Shown: piece by piece, positions 8,509-17,590 of the stretch
Position numbering within the stretch: the stretch's first letter is position 1
How the letters are laid out: the number at the start of each line of letters is the position of its first letter
From: Pycnococcus provasolii
Lineage: Eukaryota; Chlorophyta; Pseudoscourfieldiophyceae; Pseudoscourfieldiales; Pycnococcaceae
NCBI GenBank assembly: GCA_938743325.2
Contig: OW568861.1
Span: forward strand, 806,001-870,000
Reading direction: 5' to 3'
DNA length: 64,000 nucleotides
Made by a program: the position numbers and the translations under genes
Notes under the pieces: generated by a model
Told to the model about the DNA's origin: nothing
Database searches by the model: none
Seen by the model: only the letters and a program-made list of their open reading frames with translations

Positions 8509-10203
8509 CGCGCGAGCTGCGTCGGCCGTCGGCGTCGGCAGGGATAAGGAATGGCAGGTCGTTGGAAGAAGCGATAAGGCGGACCACTTTTGTCGTTTCT
8601 AGGCTTTCGGTTCGGGATCCCTTCTTGAACAACAGACCTTCTCTAACCAGACCGCGGAAAAATTGGGGGTTTGGGGTCCCCTACGTCCTGGTTTTGGAGT
8701 TTTGAGTTTTCCCTATCCTCTGGACTTACCCTACCCGGGTACGGAATGGACGTGCACGTGGCCCAGCCACACTTTACTTTTTAGCGCTGGTGTCGTGCTG
8801 TGGCCCAGCCTTGCAGACGCGTGAGGACGCGTTCCTGCAGCTTATACGTCGTGCGAATAAGGCGTTGAAAAACGGGCTTTTCACCTTGTTCATCGCACAA
8901 ATAGTTCTTACCATGCTTTTTCCCTTTGTCCAAAGGGATATAAAGCGGGATTTTGTCGCAGCGGCTTTTCAAGACTCTTTTGCGCTCTTTTCGACTTTTT
9001 TTCGTTTTTTTGAGCGCTTTCAATCCGCCCTTGATGCGTTTCCAAGAAGGTTGCACGCAATGTGGGTAAAGGTGCGCGTGCACATCCACGGGGATGACGC
9101 TAAAGCACTGGGTAATTAGATTTGGTGCTCTGTGGGCAAATCTCCATCGCTCGTGCGACAGCCAGTCTGGGTGGACGCGACCCTCCCCGGGCCAACTCGA
9201 TAAGGCTTCGACCGGTGCTGGGTGTGCTTTCGGACACCTCACCCGCCCCCCCTCCCCCCCCTCCCGACCCTCGGACAGTCCCCTCCAAGCTCCGTGCGTC
9301 CAACCCAGCACGCCTTTGGGCACGACCCTACTCGTCCCAACGCGTGCCGTGCTGCACCACTAACGCTGCATCGCAAGAGCAAACGGCATTCGACCGCACC
9401 TGCCTGGCTGCTCTGCTGTTGCGTCGCTCGTCACCAGCTCAGTTGTCACGCGTGCTTTGCAAGTGACGGAAGGCGCTGTTCCAGCCAAACCATCTCCTTA
9501 GGGAAGCCGCGCGTCGGGACGCGTCAGGCCGCATCAGACCCTTGGAGTCAAGCAAGACGCAAGGCTCCACACAGCCAGGACGCAAAGAAATCAGCGCGGC
9601 TATCACTTGAAGCAATCAGCAGCACAGACCCTGAGCATTCGGCCAGCCGCCAGCCGCAAACAAACGCTGAGCATATCATCGCAAGCTAAGAGGACTCGCC
9701 GTTCGGAACCTATAAAGAGGCAGGACAAACAAAACCAAAAACAGGCACACAGATTCCCAACAGGTTCCCCTCTAAGGTGACAACGTTGCTGATAATCAAA
9801 CCACCACCAGTTGACTGATTCTGCAGCGTAATTCACCTGCCTGATTCTCCCAGGAAACCACCTGAAACCTGATTCGACTGAACTGGGATACAGCCAGACC
9901 ACCTAACAGTTATTATTTTTAACGGTTCGGTTCTCGTATTTCGAGCTCATAATCTATCCGGGAACTGAACAGCAGAACAGAGCAGACCTATTCTAGTGGC
10001 TGAAAAGAAAAGGGTTCTTATTTTTGGGAACAGAGATAGTTAGATATCTAACCTTACCTGCGGCAAATACCAGCCCCTGGAATCCTCCCTGAAACCTCCT
10101 GAGAGTTTTCTAACCGAACTTTTCGTATCTTTTTGGTGGTGGGACCCTTCGAGTGTCTTTATCCACTCATATCTCTATCTCCGGAGATTAACCAGTTAAC
10201 GTC
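8509..10203. promoter_or_regulatory. Long divergent gap before the Dof gene
   Basis: A 1.7-kb gap between the CGL160-like start (minus) and the Dof start (plus). Open frames here lack ATG starts, conserved motifs or plausible composition, so I see no gene. TATAAA motifs occur at 8939-8944 and 9711-9716; the second would leave a ~460-base leader for the Dof mRNA. It contains a CCCCCCTCCCCCCCTCC tract near 9248-9265. Confidence 0.5.
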
Positions 10204-12723
10204 ATGGCGCCAGTACCTGTCTCGGAAGTTGAAGGTGGTGATGGCGCGCGATACCACCATCATCGTGGTGGTTTATCACGTGGTTTCGTTGATCGCGTGG
10301 GACCCGCACCTCGACAAAACCTTGGTGAAAACGTTGCACCGGACGAGGAGGACCACGTGCGTTTGGAGGCAAATCGACCTAACCAAGCAACAGCAGCGAC
10401 AGTTGGAGCAGAGCAGCAGCAGCAGACGACGACGACGACGACGACGACGAATGCAGCGGCAACAACGACGCAGAAGAACTCAGAAACACAGAATAAGCAC
10501 AAGCTCCTAGGCGACGAGTTTCGCAGCTCTTCAGGGAGCACTTCAGGGGAGTGCAGCGGTGACAAGGATGGTTCTGGTGAGAAGCAGCGGGAGGATGATG
10601 GAATGCAGCAGAGGAATCCCGACGATGTCAACAACAGCAGCGATCCCACCGCCGCGGCGGACCAACCAGCGTCAGCACCTGCGCATGCATCAGGGGATGG
10701 CGACGACGAAGATGATGAGGGGAACAAGCAGCAGCAGAAGCAAGAGCAGCAGCGCCCAAATCGACTCGATGGCGACGATGATGGACCACCTGCTGCTGCG
10801 GTGGCGACGGCAGCAACGGGTGCTGCAGAGACTGTGGCGAATGATGCTGATGCTCCGCCACCACCGGCAGAGTCTGATGCGGACGGTCAAAAGGGACAGT
10901 TGGAAGCAGCTGCGGCTGCAGCAGCAGGAGAGGTTGTGCTGTGCCCTCGATGCAATTCGCCAGACACTAAGTTCTGCTACTTCAATAATTACAACACGAG
11001 TCAGCCACGTCACTTCTGCAAGGGATGCCAGCGATACTGGACTGCGGGTGGTACGCTGCGCAATGTTCCCGTCGGCGCTGGACGACGGAAGAACAAGCAC
11101 CGCGGTGGTGCTTCGGCTGCGGAGAAGCAGCAGCAGCATGGTGGGTTAGGTTCGCTGCCTCCATCGAGCACCGAGATGATGGCTGCCGCGGCTGCGGCTG
11201 CGCATGCCGCGGCAGCAGCACACGCACATCATGCCGTACGCCCTCCGCCTGGAATTCACCGACCTCAGCCTCACTTCCACCCTGGCATTCCGCCAACACC
11301 GTCTGCGCCGAACCTAATTCATTTGGACTCGCCTTACTCGGACGCGGCGCGTGCGCAGAGCGCGGTAGATCTTATGGCGATGGCAGCTGCGGCTGAGGCG
11401 GCACAGGCGGCGCAGGCAGCCCAAGCTGCTGGCGACCCGCAGAAGGCTGCTGCAGCTGCGGCGGCGGCTGCCGCAGCTGCTCAGATGGCTCAGCATGCTG
11501 CTGCCGCTCAGAGGCAGCACCAGTCAGCGAAGAGCGACCCCGGACCGAGCAAGTCAGGCTCAGATACTGCGACACGCTTTCCAGATGGCGCATCTGGTGG
11601 TATCGCGGATGGCACCGCGGCTGGCGCCTTCACGTCAACCAAGATGGGTGGTGGTCGAGGAGTCGTTCCGCCAGCGCTGCGTACGATGGGAAGCCTTGAC
11701 ATGCCCGATGCACGCCCGACCACGCCTGGCACGACCTCGTTGATTTCACCAAGCCCCGGATCGGCGGATGTCGCCAATTCTCTTCACGGCGTGGCACCTG
11801 AGCAGGCGATGCAAGCGATGTACGGCGCGATGGGAGGTGCACCGAATCCGATGATGATGATGTTGATGATGCAGCAGCAGCAAGCAGCCGCAGCCATGGC
11901 AGCGCAGCAGCAGCAGACTGACGGTGCCGCTGCGCCCACGCCCACATCCGGTGCCCCCGACGGAAGCGCGGCGGCGGATGGCGCATTGGCGAGCATGGCG
12001 GCCATGGCGTCTGGCCAATTTTCTCCCGCATCGTTCAGCCCTCATGGCACAGCAGCCAACCAGCAGATGGCGGCAGCGGCGGCGGCGGCAGCGGCAACGG
12101 GCTGGAATCCGATGATGCCCGGTTACTACCTCTGGCCGTTTAACATGGCTGCTGCGACGGGTGGCGCCGCACAAGGATCTGCTGTTCCTCCAGGCTTCGG
12201 CGGTCATCCAGGAGCAGTAGCAGCAGCTGGCGCGTTCAACATGGCAGGATCTGCTCCGTGGGCAGCGGCGGCTCTGCAAGCTGCGAGCGGTGGTGGTGGT
12301 GGATCGCACCAGCCACCACCACAACAGCGACGCGGCTCCTCAAACGCCGGCGGTTCCAAGGCACAGATCAACAAGCCAGTTGCTGCGTCGGCGTCAACCG
12401 TACCAGCACATCGTGTACCTCCTGAAGATGGTTCAGGAGTTGCACCGCCTCCGCCGCCAGCTGGTCCTCCTCCTCCTCCCCCGCCTCCGCCGCGAGCTGG
12501 ACAGAATATGGGTGCGTGGGGTTTTGCAAGCGTTCCACAAGCACCCGTGGGTGTGGCGAAGCCGGATGCAAGCAGCAATCCATCCGCGACGCTTCGCTCT
12601 CTCTACTTTCAAAAGACGCAGGGTGTCGTCAGCCGTGGTGTCGCGCAAGGCCGAACAGAGGATGCGCGAACGCTCGGTAAGCACAGCCGTGACGATCTGG
12701 AACGACCTCGAGTGGAAAAATAA
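10204..12723 (+). CDS. Dof-type zinc-finger transcription factor
   Basis: The Dof domain lies at about residues 247-300. It has the C-x2-C-x21-C-x2-C finger (CPRC ... CKGC), the signature [17 protein letters not shown] and the basic tail [17 protein letters not shown]. Dof proteins bind AAAG-core sites and are limited to green plants and algae. The 839-residue length is large for the family because of long Ala, Gln, Asp/Glu and Pro tracts before and after the finger, which look like disordered activation regions; a Pro run ([16 protein letters not shown]) is near residue 760. An (ACG)n triplet run at about 10423-10450 encodes poly-Thr. The ATG at 10204 is the first in frame. No intron is apparent. 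Confidence 0.95.
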
Positions 12724-12791: not shown

Positions 12792-13277
12792 TCACCGAAG
12801 TTCGTAGTCTTCCCGAAAGAGGCGTGAGTTGTTGACGTAGTTGGTGAGCAGGTTTGTGTCAGATGTGAAGGCTTCGAAGTCCCAAGGAGTATCCACGAGT
12901 TCGCTCGTGGGTTGGTTCCACAGGTACAAGAATGCCGTTTCCGTTGTTGACGTTGTTGCTATTTGGACGTCCACTTGTATTCTTTCATATTCATCTTCGA
13001 ATGCGTCGAAGAGTTCGAGTTCGTTTGGTGTAATGTCACGCAGGAGCAATCCGTCGACTATACCACCTGAGGTGGTGGTGGCACTACTTCTTATGACTGC
13101 GGGATACGGCGCGTCACGCACGCACACGCGTTTGTACGCCGGCGACGCGAGCGATCCTTTTGCGCAGATTGGCGTTCTATGAAGGAGTGCGTGAAGCACT
13201 TCCGTGGAGCGCAGCGAGCCGTACACGAATACCTTTGACGTCGTCGTCGGCGTCGTCATCGGCGGCGTCGGCGACAT
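12792..13277 (-). CDS. AIG2-like gamma-glutamylcyclotransferase family protein
   Basis: The 161-residue single-domain protein has the family's nucleophile-free active-site loop VFVYGSLR at residues 17-24 and the segment FDAFEDEYERI, whose acidic residue matches the catalytic Glu of gamma-glutamylcyclotransferases. Relatives release 5-oxoproline from gamma-glutamyl peptides or amines; plant AIG2 members have uncertain substrates. The length is normal for the family. Its stop lies 68 bp from the convergent Dof stop. The start at 13277 faces the GDP-L-galactose phosphorylase gene. Confidence 0.88.
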   Translation of the reverse strand: MSPTPPMTTPTTTSKVFVYGSLRSTEVLHALLHRTPICAKGSLASPAYKRVCVRDAPYPAVIRSSATTTSGGIVDGLLLRDITPNELELFDAFEDEYERIQVDVQIATTSTTETAFLYLWNQPTSELVDTPWDFEAFTSDTNLLTNYVNNSRLFREDYELR

Positions 13278-14549
13278 ATGTTCATAGGTCTGTTGCTCAT
13301 TGGAATCGCAGAAATCGCATTACAATCTCCTAACCCCGAAACGCTCCCCTCGAATAGGGTTTTAGGGTTAGGGTTAGGGTTATTAGTCTAGGGAACTTGC
13401 GTTGGTTCCGATGGAAGTCATATAAAAAGAAGGGGAACGAAGAAACGTTCCTCTTTTCTGTGGTTGGTCATCCGTGTTCTCTGCCCCAACCATGGTGGCC
13501 ATCGGCCAGTCCCTGTTTTCCACGTCGCCCTGCCTTTTTTTAGGAGTTTGCCTTTCGTTCTTGGTTGCTAGATGTCCCACGTCGCTGAACTCAACAATGT
13601 ACCGCGTTAGAACGTGTGCGGATTTTATGCCACAACCTCGACAAGAATCCAGGAAGGGTTCGGCGTGCTTTGCATTTTTGACCGAAAAAAAGAGCAGAAG
13701 AAGACAATTTTTTCCGGATCATCTTTCCGCAATCCATTGGATCCCTGGCATCTTTTTCTGCACTCGAGTACTCACGCTGCTCCCAAGCTTCTTGACGCGC
13801 TTTGTTTTTGCCTTTTTGGTGGGTGAGCTTTGTTGGTGCGCGACCTTGCCAAACCTAACCTTAAAAATCATAAAATCATACCATGTGGTTGGTTGAAAAA
13901 CCGGGGTCCCCTTGCTAACTTGCTTGCTTGCTTCCCCCAAACAGCCAAATGCGTTTCTGGAAAGGGAGGCTTTTCCAGAACTCCAGTGCACGAGAGCACT
14001 CTCGAGAGCACGAGAGCACAAATAAGAGTCGCGAGATATGGCCAACCTTAACCTTACCTTCGGGTGACCCTGTTAAAGTTGTTCTTGATCAAAAATCAAA
14101 TGGACCCAAATGGGGATACCTCTTTTTGTGGCTTCTCCGGGCCTCCCCCCAGGGGCCCCCACCAAGCAGGCTCCTCCGGGAATTTCCCACGCGCCGCTCC
14201 TCCCCCGGGGGCCCCACACGCGCTCCCCTGGGATTCCCGCGGGACCACCACCTCTCCAGCGATTCCCGGCCATTCGCAGTCGCTGTTCATCCGTCTGAGA
14301 CACCGTCACAGCCACTCATAAGCACGTGCTTATACTTGCACTGCATTACTAGACTACTTCAAGTCTCTATAGACGTTGTCTGTTCCTGTTAGCTATAGAA
14401 CTCGTGCCGCTGTTTTTTTGGTTTTCCAGAAGCAGCCAAACCAAACCAAACCAAACAAATAATCTGTTTGCTGCTGCGCTATAATCTTCTTCATTTTTGA
14501 AGGAAGTGAAGTTTGTTTCAGCCTTAGTTTTAGTTTTAGCCTTTATTGA
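13278..14549. promoter_or_regulatory. Divergent gap with telomere-like array
   Basis: The gap lies between the AIG2-like start (minus) and the GDP-L-galactose phosphorylase leader (plus). A short TTAGGG array is at 13355-13384, next to a TAACCCCGAAAC motif (13331-13342). A TATAAA motif is at 13421-13426. The open frame at 13474-13896 lacks any family signal and I do not call it. The 14120-14270 segment is rich in GGGCCCCC-type sequence. Confidence 0.5.
13355..13384 (+). repeat. Short interstitial TTAGGG array
   Basis: Three to four hexamers, partly degenerate at both ends (TAGGGTTTTAGGG at the left, TTATTAG at the right, the same TTATTAG interruption seen in the 6843 array). Confidence 0.9.
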
Positions 14550-14801
14550 GAAGAAGTGCGAATCTACTTTCTCCTCGTAAAGTCACATCTGGAAGAATAC
14601 ATCGAACAAAGGGAGCACATTTTTAAAAAAAGGTTGGGTTTATGCGGAGGGGATACCGTGAGGTGTGCAAGGAAAGTGTGCAGAGCGTCGTCATGCATCA
14701 CGGCGGGCGTGGAGCTTCGTGTGCTGAGGGTGGCAGACCACAGGATATCTGCGCAGCTGCTGGAGGTGGACGCTTCTGCTAACCTCTGTACCTACCTATA
14801 A
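14550..14801 (+). CDS. Upstream ORF without ATG in the GDP-L-galactose phosphorylase leader
   Basis: The frame is open from just after a TGA at 14547-14549 to a TAA at 14799-14801 and contains no ATG. It encodes GDTVRCARKVCRASSC then ITAGVELRVLRVADHRIS and ends in LLEVDASANLCTYL. This looks like constrained protein: Cys- and Arg-rich, no low complexity. From memory, land-plant GGP/VTC2 genes carry a uORF of ~60-65 codons that starts at a non-AUG codon, ends in a very similar peptide, and blocks GGP translation when ascorbate is high. Candidate starts here are GTG 14556, CTG 14589 and TTG 14634 (the last with A at -3 and G at +4). The stop is 90 bases before the GGP ATG. Confidence 0.8.
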   Translation, partial: EEVRIYFLLVKSHLEEYIEQREHIFKKRLGLCGGDTVRCARKVCRASSCITAGVELRVLRVADHRISAQLLEVDASANLCTYL

Positions 14802-14891
14802 GAAAGATATAGACCTACGAGAGAGACAGACCTACCGACGAAACCGAATATACCAACAACAGCAACAACAACAGCAAACAAACCAAACATC

Positions 14892-16391
14892 ATGGATAAC
14901 TTTAACGCTACGACAATGTCGCGCGTGCCCACGCTCATCAGCCTGAACCAGCTTGCAGACTACTCGCCGCTCGACGAGATGGAGGGTGCTTCGCCACCCC
15001 GTGTTGAGGCCAACTTGGTCCACGCGATGAAGCCGTGCAAAAGCACCGTCGCATCCATCACGCGCGACGCGACGCCGTGCTACCTGTTCCCGGCGTGCCG
15101 GATGCCGAATGCGGTGCCGCCGCTGTCTGCTGAGCGACTTGCCGCGTCGCAGTCGGAGCAGCAGAAGACGATGAGCGACAGCGACGGCGAAAACGACTCC
15201 AACTCGGACACGCAGCTTTACGGCATTGGCGAGTACGAGACGGAGAGCGCGTCCGGCGAGTACGCGAGTACGCTCGGGCAGAGCGCATTTGACGACATCC
15301 TCCTGTCGCACTGGGAAGATCGCGCCGAGCTCGGACTGTTCCGGTACGACGTGACGGAGTGTGCCACCAAGGTGCTTCCCGGTGAGCTCGGATTCGTCGC
15401 GCAGCTGAACGAGGGTCGCGCGCTCAAGAAGCGCCCGACGGAGTTCGCCATCGACCAGGTGGCGCAGCCGTTCGATCCTACGAAGTTTAACTTCAACAAG
15501 GCTGGAATCAACGAGGTGCTGTTCACCTTCGGCGCCGCCACGGGCATCGCGACGTCCAAGTACAACGAGATTGACGCGACGATCGACGGGCTGTCCGCTG
15601 ACCTTGCGGTGGACAGCCCGATGTTTGACCCGAACCTCGTGCTCATCAACGTCAGCCCGATCGAGTACGGGCACGTGCTGCTCGTGCCGAGCGTGCTGAG
15701 CTGCCTCGAGCAGAAGCTTACGTTGCCGACGTTCCGCCTCGCGCTGGAGATGATTCGCGAGGCTGACAACCCAGATTTCCGCATCGGGTTCAACAGCCTC
15801 GGCGCGTTCGCCACCATCAACCACCTGCACTTCCAGGCGTACTACCTCTCGACCGCGTTCGCCGTCGAGCGTGCGACTCTGTCGGCTGTCACAGACGTGA
15901 CGTTCGTGCCGCCGTCGCCGGAAATGAACGCCGCTTGCCCAATGGAGTCTGCGTGCGGAGGTGCGTTCGAGGAGTCTGACTTCTCGAGTGTTCACATCTG
16001 CACGCTCGCGGACTACCCCGTGCGTGGCATGTGCTTCTACATCACGAGCATCGCCGACATTGCGAAGCTTGCGGCTGTGGTGTCCTCTTGCTGCGAGCGC
16101 ATGCACGATGCGAACATTCCGCACAACGTCTTTGTGTGCGATCGCGGTCTGCGCGCATTCGTGTTCCCGCAGTGCTTTGCGGCGAGGCAGGCTGCTGGAG
16201 AGGTGCCTGAGTCCGTGTTGGCGACGGGCGTGAATCCCGCCGTGTTCGAGATCTCTGGGCACCTCGTGCTCAAGCGCAAGGAGGATTACGACAATGCGGA
16301 CGAGACGTGGGCGCGCAACATCCTGAGCGAAGTCTCGCTGGATGCGCCAACGTTCTCTAGGGTTGTGTCGCTCATGCTCACTGGCAAGTGA
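14892..16391 (+). CDS. VTC2: GDP-L-galactose phosphorylase (ascorbate synthesis)
   Basis: This enzyme catalyses the committed step of the plant ascorbate (Smirnoff-Wheeler) pathway, GDP-L-galactose to L-galactose-1-phosphate. The 499-residue protein has the family blocks FNFNKAGINEVLFTFG, NVSPIEYGHVLLVPSV and GFNSLGAFATINHLHFQAYY; the last contains the HIT-type His-x-His-x-Gln active site at about residue 308-312, where the plant enzyme's nucleophilic His lies. The N-terminal ~140 residues include an acidic linker (SDSDGENDSNSD) unlike land plants. The ATG at 14892 is the first ATG in frame. Translation is probably controlled by the uORF 90 bases upstream. It acts in the cytosol or nucleus in plants. 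Confidence 0.97.
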   Translation: MDNFNATTMSRVPTLISLNQLADYSPLDEMEGASPPRVEANLVHAMKPCKSTVASITRDATPCYLFPACRMPNAVPPLSAERLAASQSEQQKTMSDSDGENDSNSDTQLYGIGEYETESASGEYASTLGQSAFDDILLSHWEDRAELGLFRYDVTECATKVLPGELGFVAQLNEGRALKKRPTEFAIDQVAQPFDPTKFNFNKAGINEVLFTFGAATGIATSKYNEIDATIDGLSADLAVDSPMFDPNLVLINVSPIEYGHVLLVPSVLSCLEQKLTLPTFRLALEMIREADNPDFRIGFNSLGAFATINHLHFQAYYLSTAFAVERATLSAVTDVTFVPPSPEMNAACPMESACGGAFEESDFSSVHICTLADYPVRGMCFYITSIADIAKLAAVVSSCCERMHDANIPHNVFVCDRGLRAFVFPQCFAARQAAGEVPESVLATGVNPAVFEISGHLVLKRKEDYDNADETWARNILSEVSLDAPTFSRVVSLMLTGK

Positions 16392-16661: not shown

Positions 16662-17327
16662 TTACTTCTGCGCCCACGCGCTGATTGCGCGCGAATTGTG
16701 GATTTTCTTCTGAAGCTGAAGAATTCCATACAGCAGTGCCTCGGCAGTTGGCGGGCATCCAGGCACGTATATGTCCACCGGGACGATGCGGTCACAGCCA
16801 CGCACGACGGCGTAGCTGTAGTGGTAGTACCCTCCACCGTTTGCACAGCTTCCCATCGAGATCACCCAGCGAGGCTCCGGCATCTGGTCGTACACCTTCC
16901 TCAGCGCCGGAGCCATCTTGTTCGTGAGCGTACCCGCGACAATCATGCAGTCACTCTGCCTGGGGCTCGGTCGGAAGATGATGCCAAAGCGGTCGAGGTC
17001 GTATCGTGACGTGGCAGAGTGCATCATTTCCACCGCGCAGCACGCGAGTCCGAACGTCATGGGCCAAAGGCTTCCCTTGCGCGCCCAGTTGACAAGTGCG
17101 TCAACCTTGCTTAGGACGTATTCCCCACTGTTGCTCGGCGGAGGGTAGGCTGTTCCTCGTACACTCGGCGGCGTCGCGTTCGTCGGTATCGCGATATCCG
17201 TCGAGAAGATGCGCTTTGTCGACGGCGCTGATGCCAAGGCTCGCAAAGCTGGTGTTGTGGTTGTTGTTGCACTCGGCGCAAAAGCAGCCATGAGCGAAGA
17301 TGAGGTGAGAAGTTGTCGAAGAGCCAT
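16662..17327 (-). CDS. NDUFS7: Complex I subunit NDUFS7 (PSST, 20 kDa)
   Basis: This mitochondrial NADH:ubiquinone oxidoreductase subunit carries the terminal [4Fe-4S] cluster N2 that reduces quinone. The cluster ligands are visible in [18 protein letters not shown] and [11 protein letters not shown]. The 221 residues include a ~55-residue Arg/Ala/Ser-rich presequence from the ATG at 17327, then the conserved core from [20 protein letters not shown] to the end. It lies downstream of TOM7 on the same strand with only 98 bp between, so its promoter must be very short or overlap TOM7. It is convergent with the phosphorylase gene. Confidence 0.97.
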
Positions 17328-17425
17328 TTTCTTTTTCTTTTTTCTGTTCTGTCAAAGTAGTTTTGTTGTATTCTTTCTTATGTCAAAAGTATCAGTCGTC
17401 CAAAGTATCCGGAAAAAAAGCCAGT

Positions 17426-17590
17426 TTACATAGGCCCGAGGAGCTGCGCGAGTGACGGCTTAGGTTCCGTTTGCATGCCAATGATGATGACGAGCGGGAT
17501 GAATCCCCAGTGCAGTGCGGGCTTCGCGTACGTCCACGCGGTATCCAGATACGCGTCGATATCCTTCTTCGAGGGGCAGAACGACGCCAT
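17426..17590 (-). CDS. TOM7: TOM7, mitochondrial outer-membrane translocase subunit
   Basis: This 54-residue gene is easy to miss because of its size. Its second half, [19 protein letters not shown] then SLAQLLGPM, matches the TOM7 pattern of a single tail membrane segment (GFIPLVI..GM) followed by the PKP-x-L-x-QLL end seen in plants. The N-terminus ([19 protein letters not shown]) is a short cytosolic helix. TOM7 modulates assembly and stability of the TOM import pore. The ATG at 17590 is the only reasonable start; the TAA is at 17426-17428. It is followed 98 bp later by NDUFS7 on the same strand. Confidence 0.92.

Follow-up and report, generated by a model that had tools for sequence, protein, structure and literature searches.

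A putative relative of the land-plant GDP-L-galactose phosphorylase uORF in the leader of the GGP gene of the green alga Pycnococcus provasolii

The GGP gene and its surroundings

The window analyzed here is a 64,000-nucleotide stretch of Pycnococcus provasolii DNA (contig OW568861.1, positions 806,001 to 870,000). At positions 14892 to 16391 of its forward strand lies the main open reading frame of GDP-L-galactose phosphorylase (GGP), which comprises 499 codons from the ATG at 14892 and needs no intron. A search of the protein database gave 1,272 matches at an E value of ≤1e-10 out of 7,999 scored candidates, and the named matches among the 120 GGP homologues listed were mostly plant and algal GGPs. 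The homologues carry two GGP Pfam domains (PF26216 and PF26217), precomputed in that database, whereas a Pfam scan of the window protein assigned it to no family. The gene occupied a single place in the 32.3-Mb genome in a whole-genome search, and its start codon lies in a strong context (A at -3, G at +4). No matches were obtained when the GGP alignment (A1) was run against GTDB and IMG/VR contigs in search of stray algal or plant DNA. One database entry, P0006 (ENA), has a C-terminal part that is the GGP of this alga and an N-terminal part which, by eye, is like P0099, a pattern as in an assembly chimera from a mixed sample.

Upstream of GGP, a gene for an AIG2-like gamma-glutamyl cyclotransferase was located on the reverse strand, divergent from GGP across the leader (12795-13319; PF06094, E 3.1e-16), and a Dof zinc-finger gene on the forward strand at 10192-12723 (PF02701, E 1.5e-31). 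On the other side, the gene for the 20-kDa subunit of complex I (16662-17351, reverse strand; PF01058, E 3.9e-28) is convergent with GGP, and at 17429-17590 of the reverse strand a gene of 54 codons encodes a member of the Tom7 family (PF08038, E 5.2e-14) and is small enough for annotation to miss. Elsewhere in the genome, the ALO family (PF04030) was matched at two places (G000 C14:778191-778748, L010, E 5.6e-14; and C5:345355-345822, L011, E 1.6e-8); both are candidate genes for the final step in making ascorbate, of the galactonolactone dehydrogenase or gulonolactone oxidase type.

The 529 bases from 14113 to 14641 of the forward strand, likely the upstream portion of the 5' leader of GGP, contain no ATG. 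Among 1,000 dinucleotide shuffles of this segment, the mean number of ATGs was 3.7, and 1.5% of the shuffles had none. It is the second longest ATG-free gap on the forward strand of the window. The longest, of 1,107 bases (9097-10203), stands right before the Dof gene frame and is perhaps a very long leader free of uORFs; given this position, extended leaders without an ATG may be a frequent feature here.

Two overlapping frames and the plant peptide set

Downstream of the ATG-free segment, two overlapping frames of the forward strand are open. One of them opens after the TAA at 14624-14626, is open from 14627 and closes at the TAA at 14780-14782, 109 bases before the ATG of GGP. From its ATG at 14642 it forms a uORF (14642-14782) of 46 codons, with the peptide MRRGYREVCKESVQSVVMHHGGRGASCAEGGRPQDICAAAGGGRFC. 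A second in-frame ATG at 14693-14695, one codon ahead of the conserved core described below, would yield 29 residues. The context of the first ATG is weak (T at -3, C at +4), and that of the second (G at -3, C at +4) was counted with the weak uORF contexts. Ahead of the core, the frame has no ACG or ATC codon and two GTG codons, and the start of the uORF is probably an ordinary AUG. The other frame, at 14550-14801, is the one put forward in the preliminary description as a uORF begun without AUG. As described there, it is stop-free over 83 codons without an in-frame ATG, its peptide reads as quoted and ends in LLEVDASANLCTYL, and it stops 90 bases before the ATG of the 499-codon GGP.

The letters of the plant GGP uORF peptide were not found printed in the available portions of the literature searched (PMC7640755, PMC11066804, PMC6878703, PMC11066809, PMC12559526, PMC9305500, PMC11440899, PMC9916717, PMC6191929 and PMC11062462). 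The entry point was a gene model of Asimina triloba (P0115, 583 residues), in which the leader is translated as an N-terminal extension; among the 120 GGP homologues listed, this extension matches the window in a frame other than 14550-14801 (BLASTP E 3.3e-7). For a query of the protein database, the last 34 residues of the 14550-14801 peptide were fused with 35 residues from the Asimina extension; no query that retrieved plant peptides contained the homologous window frame. This joined query gave 53 candidates, the best 51 of which were P0002 and 50 short proteins (P0123-P0172). The Asimina-type core was present once in all 50, and all 50 aligned to the overlapping window frame. Their commonest core, HGGRGALPSEGGSPSDLLFLAGGG, had no match to the 14550-14801 peptide.

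Species names accompany 20 of the 50 peptides, all of them flowering plants (Dipteronia, Tagetes, Trifolium, Brassica, Hibiscus, Linum, Gossypium, Arachis, Cichorium, Olea, Lithospermum, Acer, Ipomoea, Populus and Mikania, and the grasses Puccinellia and Digitaria), and the remaining 30 presumably come from land plants too. The residues ITA occurred in 36 of the 50, and TA followed by I, F or C in 43, as read at the protein level with putative start codons; counted from this Thr to the end, these 43 peptides had 55 to 80 residues (median, 62). Position 10 of the core was Glu in the 18 named non-grasses and Ala in the two named grasses. In a wheat study, the start codon of the plant uORF is given as AUC (Ile) or ACG (Thr), and one residue is said to be Ala in grasses and Glu elsewhere (PMC6878703); a rice paper gives 60 residues and an ACG start (PMC12559526). 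Since the Ile-Thr near the start, the length and the Glu/Ala split match what these papers describe, the 50 peptides are, on the grounds of sequence, the published plant GGP uORF.

A profile of 55 positions, from ITAI to AGGG, was built from the 50 plant peptides and compared with all 1,620 stop-to-stop frames of the window of at least 20 residues. It ranked 14627-14779 first, with an E value of 1.2e-8 (runner-up, 0.18), and a profile of the core alone gave 2.3e-7 (runner-up among the window open reading frames, 0.11). In an ungapped comparison with the plant consensus, the 24-residue core scored 80, and the runner-up among 75,304 stop-free stretches scored 37. A 26-residue fragment of the plant core had one match in the 32.3-Mb genome (E 0.0037), located directly upstream of the lone GGP copy found. 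The core itself, HGGRGASCAEGGRPQDICAAAGGG (14699-14770, forward strand), agrees with the commonest plant core at 15 of 24 residues, in the pattern HGGRGA..EGG.P.D....AGGG. Of the 18 core columns that are invariant in the plant peptides, 13 are kept in the window (GGRGA, GG, P, D and AGGG) and five are changed (P57, S58, S64, F68 and L69 in the numbering of P0123). Among the changed residues is the Phe-Leu of plant LLFLAGGG, where the window has CAAAGGG. The N-terminal half of the plant peptide was not recognizable in the window uORF, and the profile aligned only from position 21 of 55. A sub-threshold Pfam match of the uORF to DUF3086 (E 0.0052; 16.3 bits, cut-off 24) was taken as chance. A degenerate DNA pattern of the plant and window core had no match in IMG/VR and hit six bacterial records in GTDB contigs, where a few chance matches are to be expected.

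The presence of the land-plant GGP uORF in this alga is therefore supported by the profile, the whole-genome search and the position, while the frame and the start codon proposed for it are not. The homologous peptide lies in 14627-14782, and the idea that 14550-14801 is a non-AUG homologue with a conserved C-terminal end is refuted; we read that frame as an overlapping one with no demonstrated coding role. Its peptide end, said to be like the plant ends, reached a best ungapped BLOSUM62 score of -5 against the 24-residue plant core, versus 80 for the overlapping frame, and its alignment with the 50 plant peptides gave short matches with E values of 1.1 or worse. Its openness is unremarkable, since chance suffices to produce it: a frame with 83 or more codons and no stop was present in 57% of the 500 dinucleotide-shuffled versions of 14113-14891, the six frames of the window hold 332 stop-to-stop frames of at least this size, and of 5,000 synonymous recodings of the overlapping frame, 29% left 14550-14801 open over 14627-14779. 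The peptide had no match in IMG/VR contigs and none besides itself in its own genome. Its sole relative in the protein database was P0002 (ENA, from a 670-base contig), which is identical to it over 75 residues, so that the source organism is probably the same as the window alga or very near to it. After these 75 residues P0002 departs into KRAQPAPSSWNL, a tail that one degenerate pattern did not find in the genome; P0002 is probably an assembly chimera.

Proposed function and rival readings

Taken together, the comparisons support the homology of the uORF at 14642-14782 to the GGP (VTC2/VTC5) uORF of land plants, for which the reference is reportedly Laing et al. 2015. Both stand in the leader of the same gene and stop before the main ATG (for plants, PMC6878703, PMC12559526 and PMC11066809), and both share the core and a short variable tail, of three residues in the alga and 1 to 23 in the 50 peptides. 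They differ in the start codon, AUG (14642 or 14693) in the alga versus ACG or AUC in plants, and in length, 46 codons versus about 60. In addition, the algal peptide is without a recognizable N-terminal half (ITA...VRRKGC), the plant core residues LPS, PS and LLFL are replaced, and the alga stands outside the land plants. With two ATGs in place of an ACG or AUC start, the algal uORF would be a variant related by descent rather than a plain member of the plant group.

Because of this homology, the mechanism proposed for plants may be extended to the alga. We consider it rather probable that the uORF is leaky and that its nascent peptide attenuates GGP translation, more so at high ascorbate; presumably the leader is transcribed in a single piece, the uORF is translated and represses GGP, and ascorbate is the signal. 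Scanning ribosomes would first meet the weak AUG at 14642 and then the in-frame AUG at 14693; part of them would translate the uORF, and the rest would leak to the AUG of GGP at 14892 in its strong context. The weakly placed AUGs would thus play the part of the plant ACG, letting some ribosomes pass. Within the ribosome, the nascent segment GGRGA..EGG.P.D....AGGG would hinder elongation or termination, and the hindrance would rise with ascorbate or a proxy of it, so that less GGP would be made. According to a review (PMC11066804), the plant uORF reduces the translation of GGP, and an altered amino acid sequence of the peptide abolishes the feedback. Similar devices, in which a nascent peptide and a metabolite are proposed to hinder the ribosome and lower the main open reading frame, are the SAMDC/polyamine, S1 bZIP/sucrose and PEAMT/phosphocholine uORFs, which involve other genes and other metabolites and are likened here by their proposed logic. 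Weighing against the proposed mechanism are the five changed invariant residues, the unrecognizable N-terminal half, the E value of 0.0037 in the genome-wide search with a single sequence, the reported lack of ascorbate feedback in Chlamydomonas (PMC9916717) and the fact that this analysis found no further algal uORF of the type.

The first two of these points make a plain damper the chief rival, since neither the Phe-Leu of the core nor the N-terminal half is kept. The uORF would then be homologous and translated and would act constitutively, using up scanning ribosomes with no response to ascorbate. Such a reading also agrees with published accounts, in which it is unproven, for plants as well, that ascorbate is sensed directly (PMC11066809) and the VTC2 gene of Chlamydomonas reinhardtii, likewise a green-algal GGP gene for the key step of the L-galactose pathway, is reported to be without negative ascorbate feedback (PMC9916717), a comparison made by description. 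However, GGRGA, GG.P.D and AGGG were kept, although a damper could do without conservation of its peptide, and we regard this reading as somewhat unlikely. The weak context of the AUG at 14642 and the lost residues would also suit a relic, that is, a frame descended from a functional GGP uORF and now untranslated or without effect; but an unconstrained frame would hardly have kept 13 of 18 invariant residues and 51 stop-free codons over a long divergence, which makes a relic improbable.

Readings that do away with the peptide of the 14642 frame fare worse. Since the plant side was compared as peptides only, a codon-level sign of selection on the peptide is missing, and the conserved stretch might act within the leader as DNA or RNA instead of as a coding frame. 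No Rfam family reached the cut-off in 13800-15000, however, the best match being a sub-threshold one to PhotoRC-I (14039-14067, E 0.016), and in plants it is the amino acid change in the peptide that removes the feedback, as noted above; we give this explanation little credence. Least credible of all is a functional uORF at 14550-14801 from a non-AUG start. In its favor, it has 83 open codons and an ATC-ACG-G at 14697-14703, where A stands at -3 and G at +4, in agreement with descriptions of the plant start; but its openness is expected by chance, it has no plant uORF match, the ATC-ACG-G arises from the His-His-Gly codons of the true core, and translation from that ACG would give 33 residues, versus the plant-type median of 62.

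Age and meaning of the uORF

The phylogenetic position of the gene was studied with a GGP tree for which the author chose 37 sequences from the 120 listed; in it, the window was represented by P0003, listed as 100% identical to the window GGP yet different from it at residues 322 and 325. The clade that unites Zygnematophyceae with land plants (support 100/99) did not include the window sequence or P0005, whose GGP is 65% identical to that of the window; both sat on a long stem weakly placed near other green algae. The GGP, the Dof-domain gene and the genome size are the grounds on which the organism was judged to be a green alga. Joining the two to the land plants was rejected by the AU test (p 0.024), whereas joining them to the whole group of Zygnematophyceae and land plants was not (p 0.386); the test is weakened because the two groups were defined once the tree had been inspected.

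Conservation of the GGP uORF is described for the range of plants between mosses and angiosperms (PMC12559526, with reference to Laing et al. 2015), and some other plant peptide uORFs extend to green algae (PMC9305500). None of the available portions of the papers searched described a GGP uORF for an alga, although an earlier mention is possible, and the present analysis found no second algal uORF of the GGP type. The data support an origin of the uORF before land plants, if it was inherited vertically. More tentatively, and with somewhat less than even confidence, the alga may stand outside the streptophytes, and a GGP peptide uORF, perhaps begun with AUG, may have been present in the green-plant ancestor, lost in lineages such as Chlamydomonas and, along the line to land plants, later given its ACG start and N-terminal extension.

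In plants, the GGP uORF acts as a main brake on vitamin C synthesis at the level of translation, and crop editing is directed at it; a homologue outside land plants would take this device back to unicellular ancestors. Comparison over so long a distance separates the residues that persist (13 of 18) from those that were dispensed with, and the algal uORF, as a natural, short and AUG-started version, could be used for asking how the peptide responds to ascorbate. If the reading of a green-plant ancestor is true, the shared GGRGA, GG.P.D and AGGG would be the minimal sensing or stalling unit.
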